This document shows, one piece after another, positions 23,414 to 60,304 of a stretch of 64,000 nucleotides of DNA. Made by a program: the position numbers and the translations under genes. Position 1 is the stretch's first letter. Each line of letters begins with the position of its first letter. Where the stretch lies: contig NZ_LWBP01000199.1 of NCBI RefSeq assembly GCF_002078015.1, positions 124,001-188,000 on the forward strand, written 5' to 3'. The stretch comes from Niastella populi. Its GTDB lineage: Bacteria; Bacteroidota; Bacteroidia; Chitinophagales; Chitinophagaceae. A model generated the notes under the pieces. That model saw nothing but the letters and a program-made list of their open reading frames with translations. It was not told the DNA's origin and ran no database searches.

Positions 23414-23599
23414 CAATGTGACAATGTGATAATTCGATAATGAAATACAAATACAGATTCACGCTACTCGCAGCTCGCGAAATGCTGTTTGCTTTATAAA
23501 TTTTTCCGGTTTCATAGCATTAGCTTTTTCATTTCTATTCAGTATTTATTAGCGGCTTCCAATATCAAATTATCGAATTATCACATTATCAAATTATCG
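23414..23599. repeat. Inverted pair of degenerate 8-mer arms
   Basis: The left arm (23414-23442) is built of 8-mers such as CAATGTGA and TAATTCGA. The right arm (23561-23599) uses AATTATCG, AATTATCA and CATTATCA. They are roughly complementary with about 120 bases between. The right arm contains the stop codon of the glucanotransferase gene (TAA at 23596-23594). Confidence 0.8.
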
Positions 23600-26281
23600 C
23601 CCCGCATCTTTTATAAACTCCTCCAGCTCACTATTGAACTCCTTCTCCTTCAACAACTGCTCCAGCGTAATGTGCATCCTGTACCGCCAGTAATGTTTGG
23701 GCATGGCCGGTATATTGATGCGTTCTTCATTCGGGTTTTCACGGCGCAGGGTTTCGTTCATGCCCAACAGGTCCTGCAGCTGAAAGGTTGCCCACAATGC
23801 CGGTGACTGCAAATGCTGAATCACAATGGCCTTGTTGATCCATGCTTCACAGGTTGGCGGCGCATCGCCCCACTGACCTAAAATATAGTTATAGAACCGT
23901 TGCGTTTTTGTGCGGTCCTCTTCCCACCAGCCGCGGATGGTGCTCATATCGTGTGTTGCCGGCGTAACTACCGATAAATACGGCGCATGCGCGGGATGAA
24001 AGAACTCTGCATGAATATCTTTCGGCATCCGCTGTATTTCGAGGCTCGCAATTCCCAACTGTTTCATTACTTCCGGTACGCAATGCGGCACCATGCCGAG
24101 GTCTTCGCCGCAGATCAGCATGTTGGTCGACCGTTTCAGCGCCGGCAATTTACGTAACCCTTCCTGCATCCAGAAATGTTCCTGCCGATGATAAAAATAA
24201 TTTACGTACAGGTCTTTCAGTTTATCCTGCAGATAACCGTCGAGGTGACGGAACGATGTGGTACTTTCTATGCCTATCCTGAAATGATATTCCGTGCCAT
24301 TTGAACCCGGTTGTTCAAAGAAGATCACGTTTGAAATGAGATCATACAATCCCTGCCGTAAGTGCTGATTCTCCTCACTTCTATCCAGCGCATCGAAATG
24401 CGCTTCTACCTGGCGCTGGGTTGCAAATTCCGGCTTCAACGTGTATTGATTGCCGGCAGCATCGAGATATGGTTTGAACTTTTCTGTGTTCGGCCCGAAC
24501 ATATCCCATAACACCGCATCGTTTATAAAGGGCTGACAATATCTTACCGGGTTGAACCAGATGCCGCGTTGTTCAAACTCCACAACATGTACGGGCACTG
24601 CATGTACAAAGCGGCCCATAATGCCTTCTACAGCGTGTATTGGAATGCTCCAGATGCGAAAGAAACCTAGTATATGATCTATGCGAAAAGCATCGAAATA
24701 GTTACTCATTTGTATGAACCGCCGGTGCCACCATTCATACCCGTCGGCAGCCATACGTTCCCAGTTATACGTAGGAAAGCCCCAGTTCTGTCCGCGTACT
24801 GCAAAATCATCGGGCGGCGCGCCGGCCTGCATTTCCAGATGATACAATTCGGGTTCTACCCAGGCATCGCTGCCATAACGGTACACCCCAATCGGAAGAT
24901 CGCCTTTTAGTATAATGCCATTCTTGTGCGCATACTCAGCCGCCTCCTGCAGTTGCAGGTGTAAATGATACTGTGTAAAATAATGAATGGCTACCTGGTC
25001 GTATTGTTTTCCTTTGGGTGAAGCCAGCTTTTGTATGGCCTCTTTATTATACATATTGTTCGACTTCCATTGGTTAAAATCGGCCGTTCCATAGCGGTCG
25101 CGCAGGCTGCAGAAAACCGCATAGGGTACCAGCCAGTGTTTATTGTTCTCAAAAAATTGCTGGTAGTCCTCATCATTTGCCCATTCATCTTTCTGCACCA
25201 TGTACAGCTCTTTTATGGCAGCGAGTTTTGTATGCATCACGGCTTCATAATCCACATCGGGCAGTTCATTCAACTGTGCCTGTTTTTTCTTCAGGGGTTT
25301 TATAAGGCTGGCAAATTCTTTACCGGCCACTTTGGTGATGTTGAGGTACATAGGATGTAACGCAAATGCCGAGATGGCCGCGTAGGGATACGAATCAACC
25401 CAGGTATGGGTTGCGGTAGTATCGTTAACCGGTAAGATCTGGATCATCTTCATGCCGGTTTTTGCCGCCCAGTCAACAAATAACTTCAGATCGGTGAATT
25501 CACCAACGCCAAATGAGTTCTTACTGCGCAAACTGAACACGGGTATCACTACGCCGGCGCCCTTCCAGGTGGTATTGGGTAAATGCACAAAACCATCGTG
25601 CAGGACGGTGAGCGTATTCATGAGTGCGTCGCCGTGCAGCCAGCGGTTCTCTCCTTCTTCAAACCGTACAAAGGTTTTGGTCTTGATATTGTAAATGCCG
25701 TATTTGTATTGAATGGGGAACGATTCCTTGGGTAAGTCCAGTTTTACCGCCCACCAGTTGTCTTCGCGGTGCAGCAATACAGGACTGGTTTCATCCCAAT
25801 CGGCCATTTCGCGGGTGCCGCCAAGCACACAAATCACTTCATTTTTCTGCAACAGCGGCGCCTTTGCCTTAAAGTAATGGGTGGCATGTTTAACCGCTTT
25901 TGGCTTGGTGCGGGTTTCATTGCTCTTAAGCAGGATCTGCTGAAAAGGATCGGTATAGAAAGCGTTCTCAAATTCGCCAGGGTGGTTCCAGGTATCCAAT
26001 ACCCTTGTCTCCTGCATGGGGCTTTTGGTAATGGTGATGGATTTATTATCGTCCCATTCCTGCACCATACTGCCATCGAGCCCCTTATAGATATAGTTAT
26101 ATTTAATGGCATCGGTTTGCGGATCATTGATCGTAATGGTACCCGTCCAAAGGTCGTTATTGAGCCAGGTTAAAGGGAACGCGTGTTCGATATTGTTGTT
26201 TCCTAACTCGTCGGTATTGCCGGTAACATAAAGCGATTCACCGGGCCGGGTATAAAATCTGAGGTAAAAATGGATCGTCAT
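23594..26281 (-). CDS. malQ: 4-alpha-glucanotransferase (amylomaltase) with two starch-binding domains
   Basis: From MTIHFYLRFYT this is an 895-residue protein. Two CBM20 starch-binding domains (about 1-105 and 125-235) precede a GH77 catalytic domain (about 240-890). Catalytic motifs are visible: YFDAFRIDHILGFFRIW with the nucleophile Asp, ICGEDLGMVP with the acid/base Glu, and ATHDMSTIRGWW. It transfers alpha-1,4-glucan segments in maltodextrin or glycogen metabolism in the cytoplasm. The double-CBM20 form resembles plant DPE2 and Bacteroidota enzymes. Thirteen further residues upstream are unlikely to be coding. The stop codon lies inside a repeat arm. Confidence 0.93.
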   Translation of the reverse strand: MTIHFYLRFYTRPGESLYVTGNTDELGNNNIEHAFPLTWLNNDLWTGTITINDPQTDAIKYNYIYKGLDGSMVQEWDDNKSITITKSPMQETRVLDTWNHPGEFENAFYTDPFQQILLKSNETRTKPKAVKHATHYFKAKAPLLQKNEVICVLGGTREMADWDETSPVLLHREDNWWAVKLDLPKESFPIQYKYGIYNIKTKTFVRFEEGENRWLHGDALMNTLTVLHDGFVHLPNTTWKGAGVVIPVFSLRSKNSFGVGEFTDLKLFVDWAAKTGMKMIQILPVNDTTATHTWVDSYPYAAISAFALHPMYLNITKVAGKEFASLIKPLKKKQAQLNELPDVDYEAVMHTKLAAIKELYMVQKDEWANDEDYQQFFENNKHWLVPYAVFCSLRDRYGTADFNQWKSNNMYNKEAIQKLASPKGKQYDQVAIHYFTQYHLHLQLQEAAEYAHKNGIILKGDLPIGVYRYGSDAWVEPELYHLEMQAGAPPDDFAVRGQNWGFPTYNWERMAADGYEWWHRRFIQMSNYFDAFRIDHILGFFRIWSIPIHAVEGIMGRFVHAVPVHVVEFEQRGIWFNPVRYCQPFINDAVLWDMFGPNTEKFKPYLDAAGNQYTLKPEFATQRQVEAHFDALDRSEENQHLRQGLYDLISNVIFFEQPGSNGTEYHFRIGIESTTSFRHLDGYLQDKLKDLYVNYFYHRQEHFWMQEGLRKLPALKRSTNMLICGEDLGMVPHCVPEVMKQLGIASLEIQRMPKDIHAEFFHPAHAPYLSVVTPATHDMSTIRGWWEEDRTKTQRFYNYILGQWGDAPPTCEAWINKAIVIQHLQSPALWATFQLQDLLGMNETLRRENPNEERINIPAMPKHYWRYRMHITLEQLLKEKEFNSELEEFIKDAGR

Positions 26282-26353
26282 AATGCTTTTTTTATTTATC
26301 ACTGCCGGGTTTTCATGCACGGGTTAAGACAGATAAAGCGTTCATTTTCAGAA

Positions 26354-26389
26354 CAAAATTATAGCAAGCTGGTTGAAAATAACAACAAA
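26354..26389 (-). promoter_or_regulatory. Promoter of the glucanotransferase gene
   Basis: The minus strand carries TAATTTTG (26361-26354) with TTG/TTTG 21-24 bases upstream. The predicted RNA start is near 26348, giving a leader of about 65 bases. Confidence 0.55.
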
Positions 26390-26511
26390 GGCCTTATTGG
26401 TTCGGGATAAATCAAGGACTAAATCAGCAGGCCGTAACCGGATGGGATTCGAGGTTTGAAAGATAGTAAAAAATACACACCCATTTTCTATTAGATCCAG
26501 ATCTTTCGTTT

Positions 26512-26519
26512 TATTTTTG
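26512..26519 (+). promoter_or_regulatory. -7 box of a small membrane-protein gene
   Basis: TATTTTTG matches TAnnTTTG. Transcription would begin near 26525, about 12 bases before the ATG at 26537. No convincing -33 TTTG is present. Confidence 0.45.
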
Positions 26520-26536
26520 CGGCAAAATTTTACCAT

Positions 26537-26689
26537 ATGGCTAAAGGCGCTTCTAAATTTTTGTACTGGATCCTGTTCCTGGTTTCTACTGCTGCATTTC
26601 TTTTTGCTATTGCTATCGGCTGGCCTTATCTGACCATGATCCTGCCTTTCGTTTGTACTTTTTTTGTATTGGCGATGGACATTATTTAA
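26537..26689 (+). CDS. Very small membrane protein
   Basis: A 50-codon frame begins MAKGASKFLYWILFLVSTAA and is hydrophobic throughout, with two likely membrane spans (about 8-28 and 31-48) and a short polar start. A TAnnTTTG box sits just upstream and a perfect terminator hairpin lies 80 bases downstream, so a dedicated short transcript is plausible. No family is recognised. Confidence 0.6.
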   Translation: MAKGASKFLYWILFLVSTAAFLFAIAIGWPYLTMILPFVCTFFVLAMDII

Positions 26690-26771
26690 TCGGCAATGCC
26701 TCATACGCTGCTGATTTTCTGATTTAATTCGTGCTTCATATTATTTGAAATTTTAGAAGTTATTATAAAAA

Positions 26772-26872: not shown

Positions 26873-26905
26873 TGCCGACTGCCGATTCACGATTCACGAT
26901 TCACG
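26873..26905. repeat. Single heptamer arm at the L,D-transpeptidase 3' end
   Basis: Units TGCCGAC, TGCCGAT, TCACGAT, TCACGAT and TCACG follow each other with a 7-base period. The arm ends 3 bases from the stop codon of the minus-strand gene (26908-26910). Confidence 0.75.
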
Positions 26906-26907
26906 CT

Positions 26908-28095
26908 TTACTGCACACTCCCAATCACCTCTTTCTCCGGCTTTTCTATAAAAATGGTTTGTTTCAGTTTCACGCTAACGGTTTGTTCGTGTTTTATGGC
27001 CGGTGTCCATTGCGGCATGTTCTCAAAAGCCTCAATGAGCCTGTCGTTAAGGTCGTCATTGCCGCCTTTGATCACATTGGCATAGATCACTTTTCCTTCC
27101 TTGTTTATTACAAACTCCACCATGGCAAAGGTCTTCGACTGATCTTCTAAAAGATAAGGCGCCATTTCCGTGCTCAGCTTATCAATAAAGGCCTGGAACT
27201 TATCATTTCCACCCGGGAATACCGGCAGGCGCTCAACCACCGCGGAAATTTCAGCCGGGTTATAGGTCTTCAGCGGACGGCGCTCTTTCTTCACTACCAC
27301 ATGTTCCTTTTCTTTTGGTAGAATGCCTTCAACCAGGTAATCGCCTTTTTTCGTTACCATGATGATGGGCAGCTTTTTTGTCTTTTCAAAATATGCATAG
27401 GCATGCCTCAACTCTTCCGACAGCATTTTATATTCCGGAAAATCTTTTACATATTTTCTCAGGAATTCGCTGCTCCGCGGATTCTGGAACCGGATGGGGA
27501 AAATATGCACCGGAATGAAATCCTGTCCGGCATTGCGGGCATGCGCCGCAAGAATATATAATTCCTCTATTTGTTCATTATTTACCGGAATACAACCGGT
27601 GGTAACGCAACTTCCATGAATATAGATATCGCCGCCGGGCATCAGGGAATCGCTGAGGATCCTGTCGGAGGCATTGGGATAATTTAAACCGAGCGACAGG
27701 TGATACTGGCTTTTTGGATTGAATTCATTGATGTAATAAAAACCTTCGGGCACCTGGTAATCGCCCTGCATACGTTTGGGGCCCAATGAACCGGCCAAAG
27801 CGCATACTCTATACGTTTTAAACAGGGAGAATTTTTCATTCATTTCCTGTTTCACCCAAACTTCTATCTGGCTGTCATACTTGAATGAACGAATGTAAAT
27901 GTATTTGGCAGGCCATTCCAGCCGTTTTTCCCGGAACTGCTTCATGAGGGTATCTTCCTTACGTTTCAACGCTTCGTTCATACGCGGAAAGGAACGCTGG
28001 TAATCAATAAAATTAAAACCCGACGCAGCAGTTTGCGCCGTTGCTGTTTTAATCAGGCATAAAGCCCCCAGTAAAAGTATATACGAGTATCTCAT
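26908..28095 (-). CDS. L,D-transpeptidase-family protein fused to a TonB C-terminal domain
   Basis: This 395-residue exported protein (signal peptide to about 20, ending TATAQ) has a YkuD/YafK-type L,D-transpeptidase domain at about 60-230, with IYIHGSCVTTGCIPV giving His160 and catalytic Cys168. Its C-terminal part (about 290-388) resembles the TonB C-terminal domain, with FVINKEGKVIYANVIKGG and MPQWTPAIK. The first part would cross-link or edit peptidoglycan. The second resembles the domain that contacts outer-membrane receptors or peptidoglycan. There is no N-terminal TonB membrane anchor or proline-rich span, so it is unlikely to transmit energy. Confidence 0.85.
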   Translation of the reverse strand: MRYSYILLLGALCLIKTATAQTAASGFNFIDYQRSFPRMNEALKRKEDTLMKQFREKRLEWPAKYIYIRSFKYDSQIEVWVKQEMNEKFSLFKTYRVCALAGSLGPKRMQGDYQVPEGFYYINEFNPKSQYHLSLGLNYPNASDRILSDSLMPGGDIYIHGSCVTTGCIPVNNEQIEELYILAAHARNAGQDFIPVHIFPIRFQNPRSSEFLRKYVKDFPEYKMLSEELRHAYAYFEKTKKLPIIMVTKKGDYLVEGILPKEKEHVVVKKERRPLKTYNPAEISAVVERLPVFPGGNDKFQAFIDKLSTEMAPYLLEDQSKTFAMVEFVINKEGKVIYANVIKGGNDDLNDRLIEAFENMPQWTPAIKHEQTVSVKLKQTIFIEKPEKEVIGSVQ

Positions 28096-35400: not shown

Positions 35401-35546
35401 CCCTGGGTATTGTAATTGTAGGTGGTATCATGTTCTCGCTGATCCTGACGCTTTATGTGGTACCGGCCGTTTATTCGTTCCTGTCGCGCAAAAAACACAA
35501 AAGCGAAATGGAGCTGATGGACGAAAAAGAAGTTAGCAGAGCATAA
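32454..35546 (+). CDS. RND-type multidrug efflux pump, inner-membrane subunit
   Basis: This is a 1030-residue AcrB/MexB-like HAE1 transporter with 12 membrane spans. The proton-relay pair Asp-Asp is in GLVVDDGIVVTENI (about 401-414), and the relay Lys is in LVGLVTKNGILIVEF. It uses the proton gradient to export small molecules with the adaptor upstream and TolC protein downstream. The substrates are not predictable. Length is normal and there are no lesions. Confidence 0.95.
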   Translation: MNISELSLRRPVLATVLNILIVLFGVIGFTYLGVRDYPAIDPPNVSVRTQYPGANAEIVESQITEPLEKAINGIAGVRNITSTNSQGVSSINVEFDLSIDLEAAANDVRDKVSQAQRSLPDDLPAPPVVSKADASSDAIISMTVQSNTRNQLQITEYATNVLVERLQTIPGVSGIQIWGEKRYAMRIWFNPAKLSAYGLTPGDVQAALNRENVELPSGKITGNSTELTVRTFGRLTTEEDFNNVIVKNVNGSDIRLKDVAEAVQGPENEETILKESRIPMIALALVPQPGSNYVAISNEFYKRLDQLKKEVPDDIKLGIALDQTKFIKKSISEVEETLIIALILVVLIIYLFFRSWLIALRPLVDIPVSLIGAFFIMYLSGFTVNVLSLLGIVLATGLVVDDGIVVTENIFKKMEEGMNKYQAAKEGSKEIYFAVIATSITLAIIFLPIIFLQGFTGRLFREFGIVVAGAVLISAVVSLTLTPVLNVKLTRNVHKHGWFYHKTEPFFRWMETGYYNSLKRFMRVRWVAGIIVLGCITLIVLIFGNIKSELAPLEDRSQFRLQVTAPEGTSFDYMDAYVDRLAQFVMDSVPEARTVLTVTAPGFSGSGATNTGFVRATLSEPGERTRSQQQIVDMINRNLSKFSDGKAFAIQEQTISVNRRAGLPVQFVIQNNDFNKLAEVLPKFLEQANRNPAFQGVDVDLKFNKPEVSLQIDRLKAAQLGVSVADVSQTLQLALSNLQLGYFYRAGKQYSVIGQVARNDRDDPTDLKNIYVRNNRGEIISLDNLVTMQEQTTPPTLYHFNRYKSATVSAGVAPGHTLGEGIQAMKDIAQPLLDETFSTALAGASRDFEESSGNIMFALGLAILLIFLVLAAQFESFIDPIIIIITVPLAFAGALLSLWLFDQTFNIFSQIGMIMLVGLVTKNGILIVEFANQKQHAGMSKRDAVIEAASARLRPILMTSLAMALGALPIALSLGAASTSRIPLGIVIVGGIMFSLILTLYVVPAVYSFLSRKKHKSEMELMDEKEVSRA

Positions 35547-35547
35547 A

Positions 35548-35635
35548 TACAGGTTACATGTTACAGGTTTCAGGGCTTGCCCCGCGCTGCGGGGTTACCC
35601 GGTTAAAACAGCCATTTCCCTGGAACCTGTAACAG
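35548..35635. repeat. Inverted arms with a GC hairpin between pump and TolC genes
   Basis: The left arm (35548-35575, ACAGGTTACATGTTACAGG) and right arm (35618-35635, CCTGGAACCTGTAACAG-like) are complementary. Between them lies a GCCCCGC...GCGGGG hairpin (35579-35594). The left arm begins two bases after the pump stop codon. Confidence 0.7.
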
Positions 35636-35663
35636 TTTCAATAAACAAACAGTTTCTCCTTAT

Positions 35664-36992: not shown

Positions 36993-36997
36993 ATTAT

Positions 36998-37563
36998 GTT
37001 TGTGGTTTGTAGTTTGTTGTTTGTGGTTGTTTTCCACCGGCAGCAGACTATTCTTTTTTAGATCTTAATACGGGTTTAAGGTTTTGAAGTAGCCATTTAT
37101 ACCATTAAAAACTGTATTTATGGCAACTATTACAAAATTTGAAGATCTTGAGATCTGGCAATTGGCAAGGACCTTAAGTAAAAAGGTTTATGCTTTAACT
37201 ACTAAGGAACCATTAGCATTGGATTTCAGGCTAAAAGATCAAATGCGCGGAAGTAGCGGTTCCATAATGGATAATATCGCGGAAGGATTTGAAAGGGGCA
37301 GCCGGTTTGAATTCATAAATTCTTTATCGATCTCTAAAGGAGAAACCGGAGAATTGAAATCGCAATTGTACCGTTCATTTGACAATGCATATATTTCAGA
37401 AGCAATTTTCAATGAATTATATCAGGATGCTGATATTCTGACCAAAAAGACGACCAATTTTATATTATACCTGAATTCAACAAAATTCAAAGGGCAAAAA
37501 TTTAAAAACAGGGACCGCAAATGAGCCAACCACAAACAACAAACAATAAACAACAAACAATAC
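36998..37563. mobile_element. Inverted-arm element enclosing an S23-family gene
   Basis: The left arm 36998-37029 is a run of TTTGTGG, TTTGTAG, TTTGTTG, TTTGTGG. The right arm 37527-37563 is the complementary type, ACAAACA, ACAAACA, ATAAACA, ACAAACA. They enclose the four-helix-bundle gene. The left arm starts 6 bases after the tolC stop, and the right arm lies inside the start of purE. I infer a transposed or template-copied unit. No transposase or target duplication is visible. Confidence 0.5.
37120..37524 (+). CDS. Four-helix-bundle protein, S23/23S rRNA intervening-sequence family
   Basis: This 134-residue all-helical protein shows the family signature: [18 protein letters not shown] at the N-terminus, [20 protein letters not shown] in the centre and a C-terminal helix pair. 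The family includes proteins encoded in rRNA intervening sequences and is structurally related to Avd of diversity-generating retroelements. Its function is unknown; nucleic-acid binding is suspected. It sits alone between tolC and purE. Its stop overlaps the purE start (ATGA, 37521-37524), and inverted heptamer arms flank it. No reverse transcriptase is near. Confidence 0.88.
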
Positions 37564-38066
37564 ATGTGGGAATAATCATGGGCAGCGACAGCGACCTGCC
37601 GGTTATGCAGGCTGCAGCCGATATATTGAAAGATTTTGGCATTGCGTACGAATTAACCGTGGTTTCGGCTCATCGTACACCGGTGCGCATGATGGAATAT
37701 GCTACAAAGGCCCGTGAAAGAGGACTGAAAGTGATCATTGCCGGGGCCGGTGGCGCCGCTCATTTGCCGGGAATGGTTGCCTCTCTGACCCCACTTCCGG
37801 TTATTGGAGTGCCCATTAAGTCGTCAAACTCGATAGATGGCTGGGATTCCGTTTTATCGATACTTCAAATGCCTAATGGCATACCAGTTGCAACAGTAGC
37901 ATTGAATGCTGCTAAAAATGCTGGCATCCTCGCGGCTTCCATAATTGGTTCTTTTAATGAACATATTGGAAATCAGGTGGCAGCCTATAAGCAGAAATTG
38001 GAAGATGAGGTATTGGTAAAAGTTGAAAATCTGAAAAAACAAGGGTGGGAAAACAAATTTGATTAG
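37521..38066 (+). CDS. purE: N5-carboxyaminoimidazole ribonucleotide mutase
   Basis: This is a 181-residue class I PurE, which rearranges N5-CAIR to CAIR in purine synthesis. The signature [15 protein letters not shown] and [10 protein letters not shown] is intact. The first 13 or so residues ([13 protein letters not shown]) are not PurE sequence: they are the translation of the ACAAACA repeat arm. A later GTG at 37564 could instead be the start and give a normal-length enzyme. In the long version, translation would be coupled to the S23-family gene. Confidence 0.93.
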
Positions 38067-38101
38067 GGAATCTTAGCTCATCCTTGTAATTTGCGCACGG
38101 T

Positions 38102-38971
38102 ATGAAACTCAAATTGCTCGACTACAGAGAAATTCCGGATTTGCCCGTTGGCTCAAACCTTGAATTTTTTAACGACACGCTGTACCTGGTGGATGATGAT
38201 GCCAGCGATATGATGGCCATCAACAAAAAATGGCAAACACTCGCCAATCATCAGTTACTGAGGTACGATGATCCGAAAATACTTCCCGGGACAAAATCCG
38301 ATTTCGAAGCAACTACCATAGTTGAGGTGAATAGCATTCCCCGCCTGCTGGTATTGGGTTTCGATGTAAAAGACAGTCATCATAAAGCCATTCTGGTTAA
38401 CCTCGATGACTATACCAAAGAAGAATACGATATCACACATTTTTACAACCGGTTAAAAGAAACCGTTGGCGTTATAAATATCGAGTCGGCCGCGATCGTT
38501 CTCGGCAAACTGATATTATGTAACCGCGACCATAAAACCGCACCGGAAAATCATATCATCGTTACCGATGCCGAATTCTGGAAGAACCAGGACAAGGCCG
38601 AGATCACTACCGTAAGTTTCGATCTGCCCCAAACGTCGAACCAGGTAGTAGGTTTATCGGGCCTCACCTATTCGTACAAAAACGACTGGCTGGTTGTTAC
38701 CTTAATATCTGAAAGCAATGATAAAGAGCACCAGTCCACTGGTGACAGCTATCTTGCCGTGATAGAGAACGCTTCGCGTAAAGTGGTGCGCAAAAAAATG
38801 AAGGTAAATGCCCTGTTCCATCTGAATGAAACAAACAGTGATTTTTCCGGTTTCAATATGCTTTCCGTTTGTATTCGCTCGGAAAAAAGCAGCCGGTTAA
38901 AACTCTTACTGCTTGCAGATGGTAGTAAAGTCGGAAAAAGCGGTGTGTTTACCGTACGAATAAAGGAATGA
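38102..38971 (+). CDS. Conserved hypothetical protein, beta-propeller-like
   Basis: This 289-residue cytoplasmic protein has no signal peptide and repeated strand pairs with short phrases such as GSNLEFFNDTLYLVDDDASD, PRLLVLGFDVKDSHH and VVGLSGLTYSYKNDWLVV. They suggest a beta-propeller of the kind seen in Bacteroidota proteins of unknown role. It follows purE by 35 bases and may be co-transcribed. No catalytic motif is visible. Confidence 0.75.
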   Translation: MKLKLLDYREIPDLPVGSNLEFFNDTLYLVDDDASDMMAINKKWQTLANHQLLRYDDPKILPGTKSDFEATTIVEVNSIPRLLVLGFDVKDSHHKAILVNLDDYTKEEYDITHFYNRLKETVGVINIESAAIVLGKLILCNRDHKTAPENHIIVTDAEFWKNQDKAEITTVSFDLPQTSNQVVGLSGLTYSYKNDWLVVTLISESNDKEHQSTGDSYLAVIENASRKVVRKKMKVNALFHLNETNSDFSGFNMLSVCIRSEKSSRLKLLLLADGSKVGKSGVFTVRIKE

Positions 38972-39137
38972 TGTGCTAATGTGCTAATTCACCAGGTGCG
39001 GCAGTCCCTATAATTTGCAAAGCCCCCGCGGGGCACTCACCAAAATTGCATTCCATTATCGATAATGTGCTAATTGTTTATTCCCAATTGCGTAAACTGT
39101 TTTCCCGATTGTGAAGGCCAATACATAGTGGCTCCTT

Positions 39138-39224
39138 TATTTTTGCTTCATTCGGGAAAGTTTTAGTTCACACGTATAGAAAAAGTAACAGTGCCATTCC
39201 ATAATACGGGATGGCGCTTTTTTT
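39138..39224 (+). other. Possible small RNA
   Basis: TATTTTTG (39138-39145), a match to TAnnTTTG, is followed about 75 bases later by a hairpin and T run, with no frame between. This could be an independent short RNA. Equally, the hairpin may only end the transcript from 38102-38971. Confidence 0.3.
39191..39224 (+). terminator. Rho-independent terminator
   Basis: GCCATTCC (39193-39200) pairs with GGGATGGC (39208-39215, one G-U pair), followed by seven T. Confidence 0.7.
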
Positions 39225-39246
39225 AATGTGCTAATGGGATAATTAG

Positions 39247-40848
39247 CTAATTAGCAAATTGTATTACCGTGAATGCCTGCTCTAATGTTAGTGAATGGTT
39301 ATATACCATATGAATAAACTCTTTCCCATACCCGGCATACCAGGGCATAAAGTTCTCAACCCTTTCCTGCAAACCGTTCCGGGGGAACAGGGCCTGCCTT
39401 ATGGTCTGTATCTGCCGTTGTTCGGCTTCATATTTCCTTTTTTCCGCGCGAAGCATTTTCTTTTCCAGCTCCTGTAATGGTTTCAGCGTTCTGGCCTGTA
39501 ATGCTTCCACGTGTTGTAGCAACGACCTGTCGATATTAGCAGCTTTGTCTTTTAAAAGATCGTATACCCGAATGGCTGCATCCAGTTCATTCTTCAATTT
39601 CAGTTCCCCGTTCCTGTGCCGGCTTACCAGCGCAGTAAGCAATTGTTGTTCGCTTTGAAAGAGGTCTTCTGCATTCAAACCCAGCCGCCGGATCTTTTCC
39701 TGCCACTTGTTCTCTATTATCAAAAACGAATTCCGCACTATCAATACCGGGAACGGCGTGCTGTAATGGGTGAACAGGTCTTTCAACTCGAGCCAGTAAG
39801 CCGTTTCGCCGCCACCGCCTATAAAGGCAATATTGGGAAGAACCGTTTCCTGGTACAGTCCGCGCAGGATCACGTTCGGACTAAACCGTTCAGGATGAGC
39901 TTCCAGTTCTGCCAGTATTTCTTCCCGGCTAAAGCTAAGTGTAGTATTTCTCACTTCGTACTTATCCCCATTCAGCGCTATCAGTTCCCTCACATTATCT
40001 TTCAGGTAGAACAAATTTATCTCGCGGGGATGCGCCTGTACTTTGTGTTCCTGCTGCGTTAACTGCTCGATGGTCTTATTCACCACGCCTGCGGGAGTGT
40101 GTTGCAGCAGGTCATCGCGGAAGACCGGCGCCATTACCCTTTTCAGGTTGGCGTTATCGGGCATAATTACGACCAGCCCATATTCGGCAAATAAGGTATT
40201 GATGAGTTTGAACGTGGCGGTTTGTATATCGGAACTTCGTAAATAACAGTTGCGCAGTAATTGTATCAGCTCCTTACCAAAGGGCTGAACCGATAATTCG
40301 CCTTCTATGCGATGGATCAGTTTTTCGAGCCCCTTCGTGTTCATACGCCCTACAGCGCCTGTTTGTTTTGTTTCCCACACCAGCTTTTCGCCGCCGAGGT
40401 AAACATGCCCCAGTTCGTCGAGGTCGGCATCTTCGCTGCCCATCCAGAATACCGGCACAAAATGATTACCGGGATGTTCTTTTTTTAACCGGTCGGCCAG
40501 TTTTATTACATGTACTATTTTGTATATAAAGTACAGGTTGCCGGTAAAAATAGCCGGCTGGTGCGCTGTGGTGATCGTAAATGTATTGGGTTGTAAAAGG
40601 CTTTGAATATTATTTGATACATATTCTGCGGTTTCAACGCCCTTATATTGTTCCTGTAATTCTTTTACCAGCAAATGGCGATCGGGTTGTGCCGACTGCC
40701 GGGCCTGTATAGCGGCGGCAATGCCTTCCGGCGAAACCGGGTGCGTATAAAATGGCCGTAACGAAGGCGACTGATTAAGATAATCGATGATGATCTTTGA
40801 AAAATAACCGGTTTGCCCGAACGATAAATTGGTAGAATTACAATCCAT
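39247..40848 (-). CDS. bshC: Bacillithiol biosynthesis cysteine-adding enzyme
   Basis: This 533-residue protein matches BshC (YllA family): the TTAHQPAIFTGNLYFIYKI motif, FVPVFWMGSEDADLDEL, the central GGGGETAYWLELKDLF, and a long C-terminal coiled coil (about 395-475). It is thought to add cysteine to GlcN-malate in the last step of bacillithiol synthesis in the cytoplasm. No bshA or bshB lies in the window. The last codons and stop fall inside a repeat arm. Confidence 0.93.
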   Translation of the reverse strand: MDCNSTNLSFGQTGYFSKIIIDYLNQSPSLRPFYTHPVSPEGIAAAIQARQSAQPDRHLLVKELQEQYKGVETAEYVSNNIQSLLQPNTFTITTAHQPAIFTGNLYFIYKIVHVIKLADRLKKEHPGNHFVPVFWMGSEDADLDELGHVYLGGEKLVWETKQTGAVGRMNTKGLEKLIHRIEGELSVQPFGKELIQLLRNCYLRSSDIQTATFKLINTLFAEYGLVVIMPDNANLKRVMAPVFRDDLLQHTPAGVVNKTIEQLTQQEHKVQAHPREINLFYLKDNVRELIALNGDKYEVRNTTLSFSREEILAELEAHPERFSPNVILRGLYQETVLPNIAFIGGGGETAYWLELKDLFTHYSTPFPVLIVRNSFLIIENKWQEKIRRLGLNAEDLFQSEQQLLTALVSRHRNGELKLKNELDAAIRVYDLLKDKAANIDRSLLQHVEALQARTLKPLQELEKKMLRAEKRKYEAEQRQIQTIRQALFPRNGLQERVENFMPWYAGYGKEFIHMVYNHSLTLEQAFTVIQFAN

Positions 40849-40925
40849 AAATTAAGAAATGCAACATAAAAGTACTATCAATCACACGATTGCCATAACT
40901 GATCGTCATTTTTAACGTTCCATTC

Positions 40926-41753: not shown

Positions 41754-41788
41754 ATTAAGCATATTTAGAGGGGCTAAGATACAAAACG

Positions 41789-41938
41789 GTTTGTGGTTTG
41801 TGGTTTATGGTTTGTTGTTCTTTTATTTCAGACTCGCGGTAAACGCTTACAGCCAGAGATTATCAGAGAGCCGAAATTCGCAGCGAACCATAAAGCGCGG
41901 CAGCAACCACAAACAACAAACTACAAACCCCAAACCGT
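41789..41938. repeat. Inverted heptamer arms between two minus-strand genes
   Basis: The left arm (41789-41819) consists of TTTGTGG/TTTATGG-type units and the right arm (41903-41938) of ACAAACA/ACAAACC-type units. The right arm ends at the base before the oxidoreductase stop codon. Bases 41892-41921 are an exact 30-base inverted copy of 44423-44452. Confidence 0.85.
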
Positions 41939-43186: not shown

Positions 43187-43309
43187 GTGTATTTTTGGGT
43201 TGTTTAAGAACAGAGCTAGTGGCAAGTGGTAAATGGCTGGCAGGGCTGTAATTCTCAAAATTATTTGCGGCCTTCCTCACGAGCCCCCCGCTATTTACTT
43301 CTCGCCATT

Positions 43310-44323: not shown

Positions 44324-44393
44324 GAACCGGGAGTAAAGTAATTAAAAATTGGTAATGGCAATATTTTTCTATGCCGCATAAAGCAGCAACGAT

Positions 44394-44543
44394 TGTTTAT
44401 TGTTTATGGTTTATGGTTTATGGTTTGTTGTTTGTGGTTGCTGCCGCGCTTTGGTGTTCGCTATTAATTTTCAATAGCCCAAATTCCCGGGCAGCAGCCA
44501 TTTAACAGAAAGCTGCATATGCAGAACCATAAACTATAAACTG
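44394..44543. repeat. Inverted heptamer arms between epimerase and aldehyde dehydrogenase genes
   Basis: The left arm (44394-44440) is a run of TTTATGG/TTTGTTG-type heptamers. The shorter right arm (44525-44543) has ACCATAA and ACTATAA and contains the aldehyde dehydrogenase stop codon (44534-44536). Bases 44423-44452 match 41892-41921 exactly in reverse complement. Confidence 0.85.
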
Positions 44544-46999: not shown

Positions 47000-47045
47000 C
47001 CCTTATACATGTTTTTTATATTAAAGCCGGTTATCGATGTATTCC

Positions 47046-47066
47046 TTTATCACATTATCAAATTAA
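47046..47066. repeat. 8-mer arm covering the rimO stop codon
   Basis: Units TTTATCA, CATTATCA and AATTAACC resemble the arm at 23561-23599. The rimO stop codon (47063-47065) is part of it. Confidence 0.6.
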
Positions 47067-48373
47067 CCAACTACTTCGCCTTCCAGGTCGTAATCGTACG
47101 CCTTCGTGATCTTTACATTCACAAACTGGCCGATCGGTAATTTTTTACTGCTGTTGATGATCACTTCATTGTCTACTTCCACACTATCGAATTCGGTACG
47201 GCCCAGGTAACGGCCCGATTCTTTTTTATCGATCAGTGTTTTAAAAGTTTTGCCAACCAGTTCCTGGTTCTTTTCAAAACTGATCTCCTGCTGCACTTCC
47301 ATCACCTCCTGTGCTCTTGCTTCTTTTTCCTCATGCGGGATATTATCTTCCAGGCCGTGTGCTGTTGTGCCTTCTTCATGCGAATAGGTAAAGATGCCTA
47401 CGCGTTCGAAGCGGTGATGTTGCAGGAACGACTTTAACGACTCCACATCATCTCTTGTTTCACCGGGGAAACCGGCAATAAGCGTTGTTCGTAATGCAAT
47501 ACCCGGCACTTTCTCCCTGATGGCACTGATAAGTTCATTCATTTCCGCCTGGGTTATCTGGCGTTTCATGGCCCTGAGCATATTATCGCTGGCATGTTGC
47601 AGCGGCATGTCGAGATAGTTGCAGATGTTATCGCGGTCACGCATCACATCCAGTATATCGAGCGGGAATTTTGAAGGATATGCATAGTGTAAACGGATCC
47701 ATTCCAGCCCATTTACATCTGCCAGCCGGTTCAACAGGTCGGGCAGCATGCGTTTTTTATAGATGTCCAGGCCATAATAGGTTAGCTCCTGCGCAATAAG
47801 CATAACTTCCTTTACTCCTTTCTTTACAAGGTTTTCCGCTTCTTTCACCAGTTCTTCTATGGGACGGCTGATATGTTGTCCGCGCATAAGCGGAATAGCG
47901 CAAAATGAACAGGTGCGGTTGCAACCTTCCGATATTTTCAGATACGCATAATGGGTAGGCGTAGCCAGTAAACGTTCGCCCAGCAGTTCCGCCTTGTAGT
48001 CGGCCTCGAACTGCTTCAGGATCATCGGCAGCTCCATGGTGCCGAAATAGGCATCCACTTCGGGAATTTCCTGTTCGAGGTTATTCTTGTAGCGCTCGCT
48101 CAAACAGCCGGTAACATATACTTTATCGAGCTGGCCGCGGCGTTTGCGTTCAACCTGGGCCAGAATGGTATTTACCGATTCTTCCTTTGCCTTATCAATA
48201 AAACCGCAGGTGTTTACGATCACTATGTTGTGATCTGATTTTTTATTCTCATGAACCACGTCAATATCATTGGCCATCAGCTGACCGCTCAATACTTCAC
48301 TGTCGACCATGTTTTTACTGCAGCCGAGGGTAATGATATTTACCTTATCCTTTTTATGTGATCTTACTTTCAT
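47063..48373 (-). CDS. rimO: Ribosomal protein S12 methylthiotransferase
   Basis: This 436-residue radical-SAM enzyme methylthiolates an Asp of ribosomal protein S12. Three N-terminal cysteines for one Fe-S cluster lie at 18, 56 and 90 (TLGCSKN, VNTCGF, VTGCLSE). The radical-SAM CxxxCxxC is at 151-158 (SEGCNRTCSFC), and a TRAM domain ends the protein. The opening LGCSKNMVDSE distinguishes RimO from MiaB. It has a very close promoter and its own terminator. Confidence 0.95.
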   Translation of the reverse strand: MKVRSHKKDKVNIITLGCSKNMVDSEVLSGQLMANDIDVVHENKKSDHNIVIVNTCGFIDKAKEESVNTILAQVERKRRGQLDKVYVTGCLSERYKNNLEQEIPEVDAYFGTMELPMILKQFEADYKAELLGERLLATPTHYAYLKISEGCNRTCSFCAIPLMRGQHISRPIEELVKEAENLVKKGVKEVMLIAQELTYYGLDIYKKRMLPDLLNRLADVNGLEWIRLHYAYPSKFPLDILDVMRDRDNICNYLDMPLQHASDNMLRAMKRQITQAEMNELISAIREKVPGIALRTTLIAGFPGETRDDVESLKSFLQHHRFERVGIFTYSHEEGTTAHGLEDNIPHEEKEARAQEVMEVQQEISFEKNQELVGKTFKTLIDKKESGRYLGRTEFDSVEVDNEVIINSSKKLPIGQFVNVKITKAYDYDLEGEVVG

Positions 48374-48383
48374 ATTAAGGGCG

Positions 48384-48413
48384 CAAAGGTACTAAAGAAA
48401 GGCAACAAGGCAA
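48384..48413 (-). promoter_or_regulatory. Promoter of rimO, nearly leaderless
   Basis: The minus strand reads TTG (48413-48411), exactly 19 bases, then TACCTTTG (48391-48384). RNA should begin only about 5-7 bases before the ATG at 48373. Confidence 0.75.
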
Positions 48414-48667
48414 CAGGGCATAGGGGCAAAAGAAAAACCTGATAAGTTATTACCCGTATTGCCATTAATATATTTATAATTCATTAATATTAAGTATGCA
48501 ACCTTCAACAGTTGTTAACGCCTTTGTATTTTAACCGTTTTAGCATTAATATTGCTCCGCATTTTGCCAAAAAAGCATTTGAAAATTAAGTGTTTATACT
48601 ATGTTTTTCGATAAATGTGGATTTGGCATAGTTTTTTAAAATGTTAAAGACCAAACAATAGATATTT

Positions 48668-50671: not shown

Positions 50672-50715
50672 CGCTAATTTGATAATGTGATAATTCGATT
50701 ATGTGATAATGCAAT
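50672..50715. repeat. 8-mer arm between rpmG and DUF4295
   Basis: TGATAATG, TGATAATT, CGATTATG, TGATAATG and CAATAACG follow with an 8-base period. A GTCCCGC...GCGGGA hairpin lies nearby at 50758-50773. Confidence 0.75.
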
Positions 50716-50781
50716 AACGGCAGTAAACCTGTTATACAATACCTATCAGCATAACTTGTCCCGCTCTGCGGGATTGGCTAA

Positions 50782-53945: not shown

Positions 53946-54842
53946 ATGAAACTGGCGGCTATCGATATAGGAAGTAATGCGGCAAGATTGCTGATCTCTG
54001 ATGTTATTTCGTCTAATAACAGGCGACCGCAATTTCAGAAGGTGAACCTGGTGCGTGTACCGTTGCGTTTGGGGTTCGATGTGTTTGAGAAGAATGAGAT
54101 CTCGAAGGAAAAGGAAGAAATGATCATCAACACCATCAAGGCTTATAAACTACTGATGGATGCCTATGGCGTGCAATATTGCAAAGCAGCCGCCACTTCG
54201 GCCATGCGCGATGCATCGAATGCGCACCGGATCCTCGAAAGGGTGAAAAGGGAAACCGGTATAGGCATCGAGGTGATCACCGGCGACGCCGAGGCTTCAT
54301 TCATTTATGAAAATCACATTGCCGAGAACCTCGATAAAAACCACACCTATTTATACATCGATGTAGGTGGTGGCAGCACCGAACTCACTTTCTTTGCCGG
54401 TGGCAAACTTATCTTCAAACGTTCATTCGATATTGGCACCATCAGGCTGCTGAAGAACCAGGTTGATGATTTTCTGTGGGGTGAAATAAAGGATTTCATA
54501 AAACGCGAAACAAAACCCTACCAGGATATTGTGGCCATTGGTTCGGGCGGTAACATAAACAAAGTGTTTTCGCTTTCCAAACGAAAAGAAGGCAAACCTT
54601 TGCCGTTGGAACTATTGAAAGACTATTATAAAGAATTAAGCAGTTTTTCGGTTGAGGACAGAATACGCATGTATAAACTGCGTGAAGACCGCGCCGATGT
54701 AATTGTGCCGGCCCTGTTCATATATATCAATATAATGCGCTGGGCTAATATAGAAGATATATTTGTACCCAAGATCGGTTTGGCCGACGGGCTTATTCAG
54801 CATTTGTACGATGAGTTGAAGATGAAACAGTTGACCAGTTGA
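53946..54842 (+). CDS. ppx: Exopolyphosphatase (Ppx/GppA family)
   Basis: This is a 298-residue short-form Ppx/GppA phosphatase of the actin-like ATPase fold. It has LAAIDIGSNAARLLI (phosphate loop 1), YIDVGGGSTELTFF (loop 2) and VAIGSGGNINKVF. It degrades polyphosphate or removes a phosphate from pppGpp. Its place 8 bases after ppk1 favours the polyphosphate role. The last four codons (QLTS) and the stop lie in a repeat arm of 8-mers, so the C-terminus may have been altered. Confidence 0.92.
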   Translation: MKLAAIDIGSNAARLLISDVISSNNRRPQFQKVNLVRVPLRLGFDVFEKNEISKEKEEMIINTIKAYKLLMDAYGVQYCKAAATSAMRDASNAHRILERVKRETGIGIEVITGDAEASFIYENHIAENLDKNHTYLYIDVGGGSTELTFFAGGKLIFKRSFDIGTIRLLKNQVDDFLWGEIKDFIKRETKPYQDIVAIGSGGNINKVFSLSKRKEGKPLPLELLKDYYKELSSFSVEDRIRMYKLREDRADVIVPALFIYINIMRWANIEDIFVPKIGLADGLIQHLYDELKMKQLTS

Positions 54843-54877
54843 CTTGTTAACGAGTTAACTAGTTAACCCGTTAACTA
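54828..54877. repeat. Six-unit 8-mer arm covering the ppx stop codon
   Basis: CAGTTGAC, CAGTTGAC, TTGTTAAC, GAGTTAAC, TAGTTAAC and CCGTTAAC run with an exact 8-base period: two variable bases then GTTRAC. The ppx stop TGA (54840-54842) is inside. Confidence 0.9.
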
Positions 54878-55901: not shown

Positions 55902-55963
55902 AACGCCGAGCACTTAATGCTAAACCCTGGACAAGTCAAACAGGTGGCGTTTAGCGTTTAGCG
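55901..55963. repeat. Short inverted arms between panB and the next gene
   Basis: AAAACGCCGAGCACTTAATG... begins at the last base of the panB stop. GGCGTTTAGCGTTTAGCG (55945-55962) is its inverted counterpart and contains the stop codon of the minus-strand gene ending at 55958. Confidence 0.6.
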
Positions 55964-56413
55964 TATCACAATATCGGCATTCAAAACTTCATAGAGAAGC
56001 AGATTATCCTGCTTCTTTTTTAATTGCATGAACAGCGTATTGCAATCGGTAGCGGCTGTTGTTTTTGCTATTACTTCTATCTTATTATAAAAGAGTAACC
56101 GCAGCATGCGCTTTTCTTTTTCGAGCCGCGTTTGGGCTTTTGCGAGATCCTCCTGCCCTTCACTATTTGTTTTCTCGGCAAATACCACTGCATTCTTTAC
56201 ATAATGATTGTTTGACTGCAGGTTGAGGATCTGGCAGGCGCATACCTTGGCAGTAGCATTGACCGCAATGATGGAGTCAATCTTTTTTGCCGAAGCCAGA
56301 AAACGGGTGGTGGTAAATGGTGATGGTGCCATACGGCCATCGTTAGCGAGTGTAGAATTGCCGATTGCAATACATGCAATCACCAGGAAACAGGTTTGCG
56401 TAAAAGTGTTCAT
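55958..56413 (-). CDS. Exported hypothetical protein
   Basis: This 151-residue protein has a signal peptide (to about 23, ending STLAN). A helical, charged region at about 88-107 (EDLAKAQTRLEKEKRML) could form a short coiled coil. Three cysteines in the mature part (VCACQ, TDCNT) might pair. No family is recognised. Confidence 0.6.
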   Translation of the reverse strand: MNTFTQTCFLVIACIAIGNSTLANDGRMAPSPFTTTRFLASAKKIDSIIAVNATAKVCACQILNLQSNNHYVKNAVVFAEKTNSEGQEDLAKAQTRLEKEKRMLRLLFYNKIEVIAKTTAATDCNTLFMQLKKKQDNLLLYEVLNADIVIR

Positions 56414-57222
56414 TGGTACGAATAATCAAGTTAACAATGTGGTTGAGGTTTTTACAGGAACACCGGAACTTGATTAGAGAATTCTGATTTCGGGAGAGAT
56501 TTCGAGATTTGCTTATGAGCCGCATTCATTACATGTTTCTGCCCTAATAATTATTAATAAATACCGAAATCTCAGGAGCGTATTTCTGATTTCGTGATTT
56601 AGAGATTTTGATATTTGCTTATGTAGGTCTTCTGATTGTAATTAAATCATAAATCTAAAAATCGTAAATCAGCAATTGTATTTGTGCGGGTCTCTCAAAG
56701 GATACGTGTGCAAAGAATGCAACTTTATCCGGTATTTCATAGCCTTTGCGGAAAACTTTTTTTTATCGGTATATACCGGCAAACATTTTCGGGTTTTTAC
56801 GTGGTGAACTTTCGCAGGCGTATATGTTATAACCTTGTTCAGGTACATAAAATAAAGAAGCCCTTTGTAGAAACAAAAGGCTCAAACGATTGCTTGCCAT
56901 ATGAAAGTGCAAATGTAAGTCAATCAGAATAACGACGTATTACCGTAGTGTTAAATGTTACTAAAAATAAGTGTTCATTGAACGTTTGTGAGTACTGGCG
57001 CTCAGTACAGGAGTTGCATGTATCGTATCTGACGCTTATGTGGTCAATGGTGAATGGTCAATGGTCAATTTGCTGAACGCCTGTTCGCGGCATCTTAAAT
57101 GTAATAAAATCTGGAACGCTATTCGTTACTCAATGGCTTAGGAAATTACAATTAATGGAGCAGGTTGTAAGATCCCGAGGCCCCACTCACCATTCACGAT
57201 TCACCATTGACCATTCACCTCT
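56414..57222. other. Gene-free stretch rich in small repeats
   Basis: About 800 bases have no gene. Two direct copies of a GATTTCG...GATTTGCTTATG phrase lie at 56489-56516 and 56587-56625, with an inverted arm AAATCAT, AAATCTA, AAAATCG, TAAATCA at 56649-56671. A weak minus-strand hairpin terminator (56853-56885) follows a lone TAnnTTTG-type box (TACATTTG, 56917-56910). The inverted-arm element at 57041-57219 is listed separately. Confidence 0.55.
57041..57219. repeat. Inverted heptamer arms beside the Spy-like gene
   Basis: The left arm 57041-57070 is ATGGTCA, ATGGTGA, ATGGTCA, ATGGTCA. The right arm 57184-57219 is CACCATT, CACGATT, CACCATT, GACCATT, CACC. They are complementary, with about 113 bases between. 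The right arm ends 3 bases from the stop codon of the gene at 57223. Confidence 0.85.
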
Positions 57223-57603
57223 CTACTCTCTGTTCGCTCTTCTTTCCTTAAACTCATCCTTCATTTCTTTCTGTTGTTCTTTATATATTTTAAACTGTTC
57301 CTTTGTCAATACTTCTTTCATTTTTTTATCTCTTTCAGCATTCAGTGATTTGAACTTTTTATATTTCGCCATTTTGCCGGCGCCTGAATTCTTAATTTCC
57401 GCTAAGCCTTCAAACCAGGTGGTATTGATAGCATCTACCTGTTTGCTTTGTTCTTCATTCAGGTTTAGTTTTTCCTTATAGGCCTGGTATTTTGCCCGGG
57501 CCTCTTTCTTTTGTTCTTCCGTCATTTTCGATTGGGCCGATGCCTGGTTCGCAACCAGCGTTACCAAAACCAGCATTACCGTTGTGCAGATGATCTTTTT
57601 CAT
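57223..57603 (-). CDS. Spy/CpxP-like periplasmic helical protein
   Basis: From MKKIICTTVML this is a 126-residue exported protein (signal peptide ending ASAQS). The mature part is almost entirely helical and highly charged, with an LNLNEEQSKQVDAI segment and a VLTKEQFKIYKEQQKE repeat of the LTxxQ type. Such proteins act as periplasmic chaperones or stress sensors. The longer frame upstream overlaps the response regulator and is not coding. It lies downstream of the LytTR pair and may be among its targets. Confidence 0.75.
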   Translation of the reverse strand: MKKIICTTVMLVLVTLVANQASAQSKMTEEQKKEARAKYQAYKEKLNLNEEQSKQVDAINTTWFEGLAEIKNSGAGKMAKYKKFKSLNAERDKKMKEVLTKEQFKIYKEQQKEMKDEFKERRANRE

Positions 57604-57683
57604 AATTATTATATTATATACAAAATTCGGGTTTGGTATTGTACTGTTAATTGCATAACACTTGAAGCTGACAAATATCGTAT

Positions 57684-59476: not shown

Positions 59477-59688
59477 GTGCCATATGACTACCCGCTACCC
59501 ATGATGTTTATTTACATGGCATAATATTTTTTAAGATCGTACATTGGAAGGTGTGCCACATTTACCGGCGACGTCGAAAGGAATTGTGGCACAACCTTAT
59601 CCCGGCTTTGCAGCTTTAACAAAATTGTTGTTACAGGTAACGTAAAAATTACGCAGTTTTAACCCTGCATTAAGGCCCTGAACGTAAA

Positions 59689-59991
59689 ATGATATACTTA
59701 ACCCAGCTGATTTATATACACGAAGGCCAGGAAGAAGCTTTCTATGAGTTTGAAAATGTTGTTCTTCCACTATTGTGGAAATATAACGGACAACTTCTTT
59801 TACGTTTACGGCCAACAAGTAGTACATTTGTTGATAATTCAATAGAACCGCCATTCGAAATCCACCTGGTAGCTTTTGAAAATGAGGATGGTCTTGCGGG
59901 ATATACACAGGATGAAACACGAAAAAGCTACTTACATCTTAAAGAACAATCCGTTAAGTCGGTTGTTCTGATAAAAGGTTCACAGGTCTGA
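59689..59991 (+). CDS. Small dimeric alpha/beta-barrel protein (DUF1330-like)
   Basis: This 100-residue protein has a ferredoxin-like fold pattern: LTQLIYIHEGQEEAFYEFEN, strand LLLRLRPTS, EIHLVAFENEDGLAGYTQDE and a final VLIKGSQV. It resembles the DUF1330 / antibiotic-biosynthesis-monooxygenase-like superfamily. Its function is not known. It stands alone. Confidence 0.65.
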   Translation: MIYLTQLIYIHEGQEEAFYEFENVVLPLLWKYNGQLLLRLRPTSSTFVDNSIEPPFEIHLVAFENEDGLAGYTQDETRKSYLHLKEQSVKSVVLIKGSQV

Positions 59992-60170
59992 TAAATCCAG
60001 TTTATTCTACATTTTTTACAATTCACCGGGTAATCCAACGGTAAGTGAGTCAGGAATGTCAATTTTGGAAAAACCTGTCCAAATATGGGACGGACTTTTT
60101 TGATATGCCTGTAGTAATTCATTAAGAATCATTTATAAGGAATATGGTATGGCGATTGGGTATTTTAGGC

Positions 60171-60304
60171 AGAACGCTTAAGGCAAAAGGCTGAAGGCCA
60201 AACCGAATTATGCTAGCCGGCTTTTTTTCTCTGAAGTTCGCGGGGATGCAGTAACAAGCAAAGACCGAATTTCGGGAGCAAGCGTTAAGCATTAAGCCTT
60301 CAGC
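60171..60304. repeat. Inverted heptamer arms
   Basis: The left arm 60171-60199 contains GCTTAAG, GCAAAAG and GCTGAAG. The right arm 60280-60304 contains GTTAAGC, ATTAAGC and CTTCAGC. They are complementary, with about 80 bases between. No gene 3' end is adjacent here. Confidence 0.7.

Follow-up and report, generated by a model that had tools for sequence, protein, structure and literature searches.

The S23 element and the arms of the window

The window analysed here is a 64,000-nucleotide stretch of Niastella populi (positions 124001–188000 of contig C198, in a genome of 8.6 Mb and 263 contigs), in which a gene of the S23 family (23S_rRNA_IVP) is enclosed by two short tandem arrays of opposite orientation, referred to below as arms. 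The gene (37120..37524, + strand) encodes a four-helix bundle protein of 134 aa that matches the PF05635 profile above its curated cut-off (E 2.9e-30) and is assigned to the S23 fold, for which solved structures are available (2gsc, of the gene XCC0516, and 2rld); the best named S23 match comes from Chitinophagaceae. It is preceded by a 5' arm with the unit GTTTGTN (36998..37028, + strand), starting 6 bp past the tolC stop codon at 36992, and followed by a 3' arm with the unit AACaAcA (37528..37560, + strand), located past the S23 stop and ahead of the likely start of purE; the two arms pair with each other in the RNA fold (z −5.07). The whole element sits between a gene for an efflux protein (tolC) and a gene for AIR carboxylase (purE), which, together with S23, are the only gene names that were tested here, those at the other sites of the window being taken from an earlier note on this DNA. 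The purE start is likely near 37566–37578; the longest purE frame (37521–37577), the ATG of which overlaps the S23 stop, would translate the 3' arm as an N-terminal extension rich in Gln, Asn and Thr. In a relative of the same genus (G071), with 68–87% DNA identity in matched blocks, an S23 gene with a GTTTAT-type arm pair occupies the equal place. An Rfam search of the window gave no match.

Arms with a period of 7 or 8 had been reported by the earlier note for the region 23414–60304, and they are real: counted from a score of 11 upwards, 20 are distributed across its 22 intergenic stretches, whereas 100 shuffles gave 0.16 on average and never more than 2, and periods 4–6 and 9–13 together account for one intergenic array. 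The same two periods stand out in a 459-kb sample consisting of the window and 20 further stretches, some of them picked around S23 genes, with 145 arrays of period 7 (128 intergenic) and 55 of period 8 (53 intergenic), as opposed to 1 to 9 for each of the periods 4–6 and 9–13, and 1–12 for each period up to 24 that is not a multiple of 7 or 8; high counts at periods 14, 16, 21 and 24 represent such multiples. Of 14 stop codons said to carry an arm, 13 are contained in one or lie within 6 bp of it, the exception being 55901, from which the nearest arm (55947..55964, unit GCGTTTA) is 46 bp away, covering the facing stop 55958. The statement that the unit differs at each site proved too strong, as many sites have one unit in common, and the reported absence of arms from the first 23 kb stands as a near-absence, one arm reaching the threshold there. 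Because positions 1–80000 of the contig also contain only 3 arms, this depletion is regional, and arms may avoid some regions. The nearly arm-free part of the window (1–23413) encodes PorP/SprF, a CHU_C protein, a TonB receptor and a LytTR/histidine-kinase pair.

Many arms have an inverted partner, as the earlier note held: 225 arms form 48 inverted pairs, against 11.3 ± 2.9 after the arm sequences are dealt anew. The two arms of a pair have equal periods in 48/48 cases, an agreement favoured by the demand for complementarity itself in a set that includes the pairs flanking S23 genes. The proposed enrichment at stop codons likewise withstands comparison with random placement in the same gap. 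With genes called as open reading frames by a codon model in this analysis, a stop is found within 15 bp of 58 of the 180 non-coding arms (24.4 expected) and a start equally near to 12 of them (17.6 expected); 19 more arms are mostly within called genes. At co-directional junctions, the stop side holds a mean of 0.08 of the free space beside a pair (n = 31, p 9e-7), a fraction that is 0.25 once the 20 bp by the start are excluded (n = 23, p 0.01).

S23 genes and their arms in other genomes

The enclosure of S23 genes by inverted arms extends through the genome and far beyond it. Among the 13 PF05635 matches of the genome, all 12 S23 genes with full flanks show an inverted flank match of at least 14, and 11 of the 12 have 7/8 arms on both sides; the thirteenth, at a contig end, has arms on both sides too. 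In a set of 111 loci, in which one broken S23 gene (L027) is counted as two rows, an inverted match of at least 14 is found in 90 (own genome, 13/13 rows; family, 43/48; phylum, 34/50), compared with 1/111 after shuffling and 9/191 for control genes of this genome (240–1200 bp). Arms with a period of 7 or 8 are present upstream in 74/111, downstream in 75/111 and on both sides in 54/111 S23 loci, the corresponding values for the control genes being 43/191, 63/191 and 20/191, and wherever an S23 locus is armed on both sides the periods are equal (54/54). These loci, labelled Bacteroidota by membership in the phylum group of the window, are mostly the best-scoring ones in the family and the phylum, and no S23 locus set used here is a random sample. 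The orientation of the S23 genes was taken from a profile search, identical proteins were collapsed (125 to 117 for the flank test, 142 to 134 for the setting test), and loci with short flanks were removed (6/117 and 6/134, respectively, and 2/80 in the cross-phylum draw). S23 proteins are present in 232/296 sampled genomes of the phylum.

The architecture is real and strong in many phyla. In a draw of 80 loci, chosen as the top matches of seven S23 proteins, an inverted match was detected in 25/36 named loci of other phyla (1/36 when shuffled) and in 29/42 loci of Bacteroidota (4 when shuffled); the 25 include Acidobacteriota, Bacillota, Planctomycetota, Nitrospirota, Verrucomicrobiota, Omnitrophota, SAR324, Cyanobacteriota and two lineages of the Candidate Phyla Radiation. 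Plasmids carry the architecture as well: 33 records have an S23 match, and of the 15 examined, nine (L312 among them, and two of the nine near-identical) have an inverted match of at least 24. S23 genes on plasmids of Nostoc, Anabaena and relatives are flanked by tandem heptamer arrays. At one plasmid locus (L314) the inverted score is 8 owing to an overlap of the 3' arm with the stop of S23, both arms being visible; this arm encodes the C-terminal end of its S23 protein. Two cyanobacterial plasmids (L255, L259) have S23 elements with long heptamer arrays between cas6 and cas4, and in a member of Planctomycetota (L227) the S23 gene lies between arms of ~200 bp whose inverted match scores 154.

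Where arms are present and both neighbours are known, S23 is encoded on the strand of both neighbours in 84/96 elements; the median distance is 1 bp between the upstream stop and the start of the 5' arm, and 8 bp between the end of the 3' arm and the start codon that follows (n = 90 each, both medians being read off lists of values).

The S23 lineages tend to keep their own unit and period, AGGCAACA and GTTTGTG being the units of two of them. Across the 57 period-7 arms on the 5' side, the unit follows T-N-A-G-N-N-N (G 0.95, A 0.80, T 0.60), with a core score of 241.7 versus 181.0 ± 6.7 when unit positions are permuted, and the 3' arm has the corresponding pattern on the opposite strand. On a FastTree tree of S23 proteins, built from few columns for the 123 of 128 rows that passed the length filter, the period changes 9 times (shuffled mean 19.9, minimum 15) and the base after AG changes 30 times (shuffled mean 43.5, minimum 37); in a larger set with other phyla, 12 period changes are counted (shuffled mean 35.4, minimum 30). 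These tests cover the rows with a period label, 91/123 and 142/197, respectively, and the larger set keeps some elements, such as L172, whose neighbouring array was taken as an arm. The likeness of units increases from 0.47 where S23 identity is below 0.3 to 0.63 where it is at least 0.6 (0.57 for such pairs across phyla); across phyla it correlates with S23 identity at rho 0.127 (permutation maximum 0.092). An AGGCAC-type octamer is common to S23 elements of Bacteroidota, Nitrospirota, SAR324 and Thermodesulfobacteriota, the proteins of which are ~62–67% identical. Since neither 7 nor 8 is a multiple of 3, stops in all frames were considered as a property of the arms; 41/93 5' arms have them, compared with 0.34 for permuted units, which was unconvincing. 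The k-mer counts within arms, made without a control, revealed AT-richness and no motif, and promoter-like sites showed no excess (16 versus 16.9 in shuffles).

Filled and empty sites, gene-less arms and their interpretation

Comparison of related genomes reveals both filled and empty sites. At four sites, S23 is present in one of N. populi and G071 and missing from the other; at one of them G071 retains a lone 3' arm, and at another it has arms of a different unit. Nine related Nostoc plasmids have in common a gene row Z-A-B-C, in which the B|C junction measures −1 to 4 bp in 8/9 and contains an S23 element of ~0.5 kb in pNsp_c. As the element is absent from 8/9 plasmids, parsimony favours insertion at B|C. 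The A|B junction is 3 bp long in 5/9 plasmids, contains S23 in 3/9 (as a short frame in pNPM1) and an armless small gene in 1/9, the stop being TAA where S23 is present and TAG in the five 3-bp junctions. At Z|A, gene-less arms with the A|B unit and different interiors are found in 5/9. The earlier suggestion that arms are insertion scars is supported by these filled and empty sites and by the solo arm at a site where the relative has a complete element.

Gene-less arms in part resemble the arms of resident S23 elements. Among 149 arms away from S23 genes, 62 resemble a resident S23 arm at 0.75 or more, compared with a mean of 11.1 (maximum 33) for 60 foreign sets and 17.9 (maximum 30) for permuted resident units, the resident set leaving out two of the 13 S23 loci. 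Arms are scarce in genomes of the family that lack S23 (2 arms in 180 kb from nine genomes), number 11 in 200 kb from ten S23-rich genomes and reach 38 in 80 kb of G071; among the genomes sampled, the expansion of gene-less arms is therefore confined to this genus. A common interior is seen in few of the 48 pairs, the dispersed copies belonging to one gene-less family (L021:16601-16802, with an interior of 143 bp in the query copy) that has 62 matches, many overlapping or partial, on ~25 contigs. Of the proposal that a common machinery rather than simple copying generated the repeats, the first part is supported and has a candidate in the S23 family, and the second is true only in part, as this dispersed family shows. 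Long octamer arrays of the AACTGAAC type occur at L016, L017, L018 and L027 with no similar resident S23 arm in the sample, and at L027:49-612 arms repeat four times at 134-bp spacing.

We consider it probable that a family of small elements, comprising S23-coding elements, gene-less derivatives and solo arms, has the arms as its terminal inverted repeats; the S23 and gene-less elements most likely constitute one family of intervening elements that are mobile. A coding element is composed of a 5' arm, an S23 (PF05635) gene and a 3' arm within ~0.4–0.6 kb. Each arm is a short tandem array of 7/8-bp units, in which AG (at times GG) is conserved on the 5' side and the complementary bases on the 3' side. 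The element lies in sense between co-directional genes and begins at the stop codon of the gene before it. Gene-less pairs and solo arms, which are abundant in this genus, are probably non-autonomous derivatives or deletion remnants. The S23 protein, an Avd-like four-helix bundle, presumably recognises the arms of its own lineage. By analogy with the intervening sequence (IVS) of Coxiella 23S ribosomal RNA (rRNA), the transcribed arms may form a stem cleavable by RNase III, so that the element would be harmless where a break in the RNA is harmless, that is, between cistrons. The hugging of stop codons would then reflect tolerance of breaks together with insertion at the junction itself.

Several observations weigh against this interpretation. 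No transposase or reverse transcriptase could be linked to the elements, and neither A|B nor B|C of the Nostoc plasmids shows a clean target-site duplication: the TTCTA that flanks the A|B insert on either side also matches the 3' arm in register, and at B|C only the triplet ATG is repeated. An inverted match is missing from 21/111 S23 loci, 87/149 gene-less arms are below 0.75 to any resident S23 arm, and 5/10 stretches from S23-rich genomes lack arms altogether. Because 191 locus pairs have both neighbours in common (with groups of 14, 8 and 8 loci), many S23 elements are old and have been inherited vertically, so that some of the agreement between unit and protein reflects shared ancestry; the correlation across phyla is weak, a unit likeness of 0.65 being reached by 16/47 same-period pairs with S23 identity of at least 0.6. 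In addition, mismatches in the pairing of arms are G-U in 126 cases and A-C in 148, and with no G-U excess, the likeness of the arms is not maintained by an RNA stem.

Alternatively, the arms could be functional RNA structures at 3' ends, such as terminators, RNase III processing sites or stability hairpins, selected at operon junctions with S23 as a bystander. The position at stop codons, the stable stems (z −5.07 and z −3.35) and the fact that divergent gene pairs, which make up 40/289 of all neighbouring gene pairs, hold 2/44 arm pairs all agree with such a role. We nevertheless regard it as unlikely, given that the flanking is specific to S23 genes, that period and unit follow the S23 lineage and that relatives have armless sites. 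Selection on the RNA strand was rejected on the mismatch counts just given, and terminator-like signals in 35500–45000 are only mildly above shuffles (17 versus 11.6 ± 3.4), leaving the role in RNA ends put forward by the earlier note unsupported by these tests. Still less credible is an origin by replication slippage and foldback template switching in which no element takes part, although the degenerate units and variable copy numbers fit it and the arms within an element are more alike than those of similar-unit elements in 40/54 cases. Slippage does not account for the S23 gene between the arms, for the prominence of periods 7 and 8 alone or for the almost armless S23-free genomes of the family. 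The mirrored order of unit variants (70/89 S23 elements, 31/36 gene-less pairs), which seemed to favour slippage, beats shuffling but not rotation (48 versus 31, p 0.12) and was dropped as evidence. Movement of gene-less pairs by another enzyme, such as a repetitive extragenic palindrome (REP)-associated tyrosine transposase that S23 elements borrow, is highly improbable too, for despite a Y1_Tnp locus with five arms in 3.3 kb (L307) and one gene-less family dispersed like a miniature inverted-repeat transposable element (MITE), the genome has 2 Y1_Tnp matches, none in the window and the second at an armless locus, and its three reverse-transcriptase loci lack arms.

The mobile S23 elements proposed here can be compared with several known systems. 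According to the consulted part of PMC4990558, S23 proteins have no known function, and the Coxiella IVS, one of several that are cited there, combines S23, a stem, tandem heptamers and excision by RNase III. The elements resemble that IVS, as far as this part describes it, in the S23 frame lying inside complementary, stem-forming ends, in tandem heptamers of variable copy number before the S23 start and in a sense orientation within a transcript that tolerates a break. They differ in lying between protein genes and in having many units, two periods and many gene-less relatives. The window element encodes S23/PF05635 and has complementary stem ends; because it lies outside 23S rRNA, it is not classed as a 23S IVS and is only IVS-like in its working, and the gene-less pairs have no S23 gene. 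Terminal inverted repeats, as in MITEs and some transposons, are provided by the S23-flanking arms and the inverted pairs. Avd of diversity-generating retroelements (4dwl, 8ub7, 8ub8) is a four-helix bundle like the S23 protein, but no reverse transcriptase accompanies the Avd-like gene, the genome having 3 RVT_1 matches, only one of them on the contig of an S23 gene, ~131 kb away.

Tandem heptanucleotides of cyanobacteria go by the name STRR; they resemble the arms as tandem heptamers, and the literature search showed no link of theirs to S23. The consulted part of PMC4692102 mentions such heptanucleotides in Calothrix and describes the GGGAATC repeats of Xanthomonas and GGGGA(C/T)T repeats of Nostoc as intergenic heptamers closer to the upstream gene (mean 28 versus 160 nt), with 70 and 75 convergent inverted pairs in two Xanthomonas genomes. 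These repeats are like the arms in being intergenic heptamers with an upstream-gene bias and inverted pairs (few in Nostoc) and unlike them in having one unit type per genome studied; in the same part they are read as quadruplex repeats, with no association with mobile elements found, and S23 does not occur in the main text of the paper. The TAACTGA direct repeats of Beggiatoaceae, also known from cyanobacteria and Bacteroidetes, are intergenic heptamer arrays, some over stops, and differ from the arms in being mostly single arrays upstream of starts, with one inverted repeat; S23 has no occurrence in the part of PMC4679880 covered. As far as the literature search shows, the link of S23 lineages to heptamer units and the intercistronic setting are new; the search found no link between S23 and heptamer repeats and left subscription papers mostly uncovered, so a prior description is possible.

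Since the unit follows the S23 lineage, a function becomes testable, namely the binding of its own unit by each S23 protein. The elements may also offer one origin for the intergenic heptamers of Xanthomonas, Nostoc and Beggiatoaceae and the heptamers of rRNA IVSs, and a reason why such repeats are close to gene ends. More tentatively, and with doubt outweighing confidence, S23 elements could form a distinct mobile class with no known recombinase, in which an Avd-like oligomer reads a lineage-specific 7/8-bp code and inserts in sense at cistron junctions, perhaps via a borrowed reverse transcriptase or replication; the heptamers of cyanobacteria, Xanthomonas, Beggiatoaceae and this genus would then be the ends and non-autonomous offspring of such elements.

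Other arms of the window and their counterparts in G071

Fourteen window sites were compared with G071, of which 38971 and 55901 are not comparable. Both genomes have the same unit at malQ, RND-tolC, S23, 44323 and 50675, with different interiors where a pair exists. At malQ, a gene-less inverted octamer pair (23414..23598; arms 23414–23441 and 23563–23598, complementarity score 23) reaches the stop at 23594, its G071 counterpart having the same unit and another interior. A heptamer arm TACAGGT with an inverted partner from 35619 (35548..35645) follows the RND pump stop at 35546, and a gene-less heptamer pair (44392..44542; arms 44392–44439 and 44525–44542) is located at the stop 44534. Heptamer arms that are partly similar are present in both genomes at 26873, where the window arm (26873..26911) covers the L,D-transpeptidase stop 26908. 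Between the stops 38971 and 39247 (bshC) lies a gene-less octamer pair (38958..39260).

The units differ between the two genomes at 41762, 48373 and 54842. The first site holds the gene-less heptamer pair with the unit GTTTGTG (41788..41936; arms 41788–41819 and 41905–41936; RNA fold z −3.35), which has 65 matches genome-wide, mostly to arms, and is replaced in G071 by octamer arms with other units. Upstream of the start 48373, the octamer arm AAGGCAAC (48399..48428) has a heptamer arm of another unit as its counterpart, and G071 likewise has arms of other units in place of the octamer arm AGTTAACN (54828..54875) over the ppx stop 54842. No arm is found in G071 at rimO, where an octamer arm (47040..47073) covers the stop 47063 in the window, or at 57041 and 60167, where gene-less heptamer pairs (57041..57242, with arms 57041–57069 and 57174–57242, over the stop 57223; and 60167..60306) have shorter, armless counterparts. 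The octamer arm TAATGTGA (50675..50717) is kept in G071.

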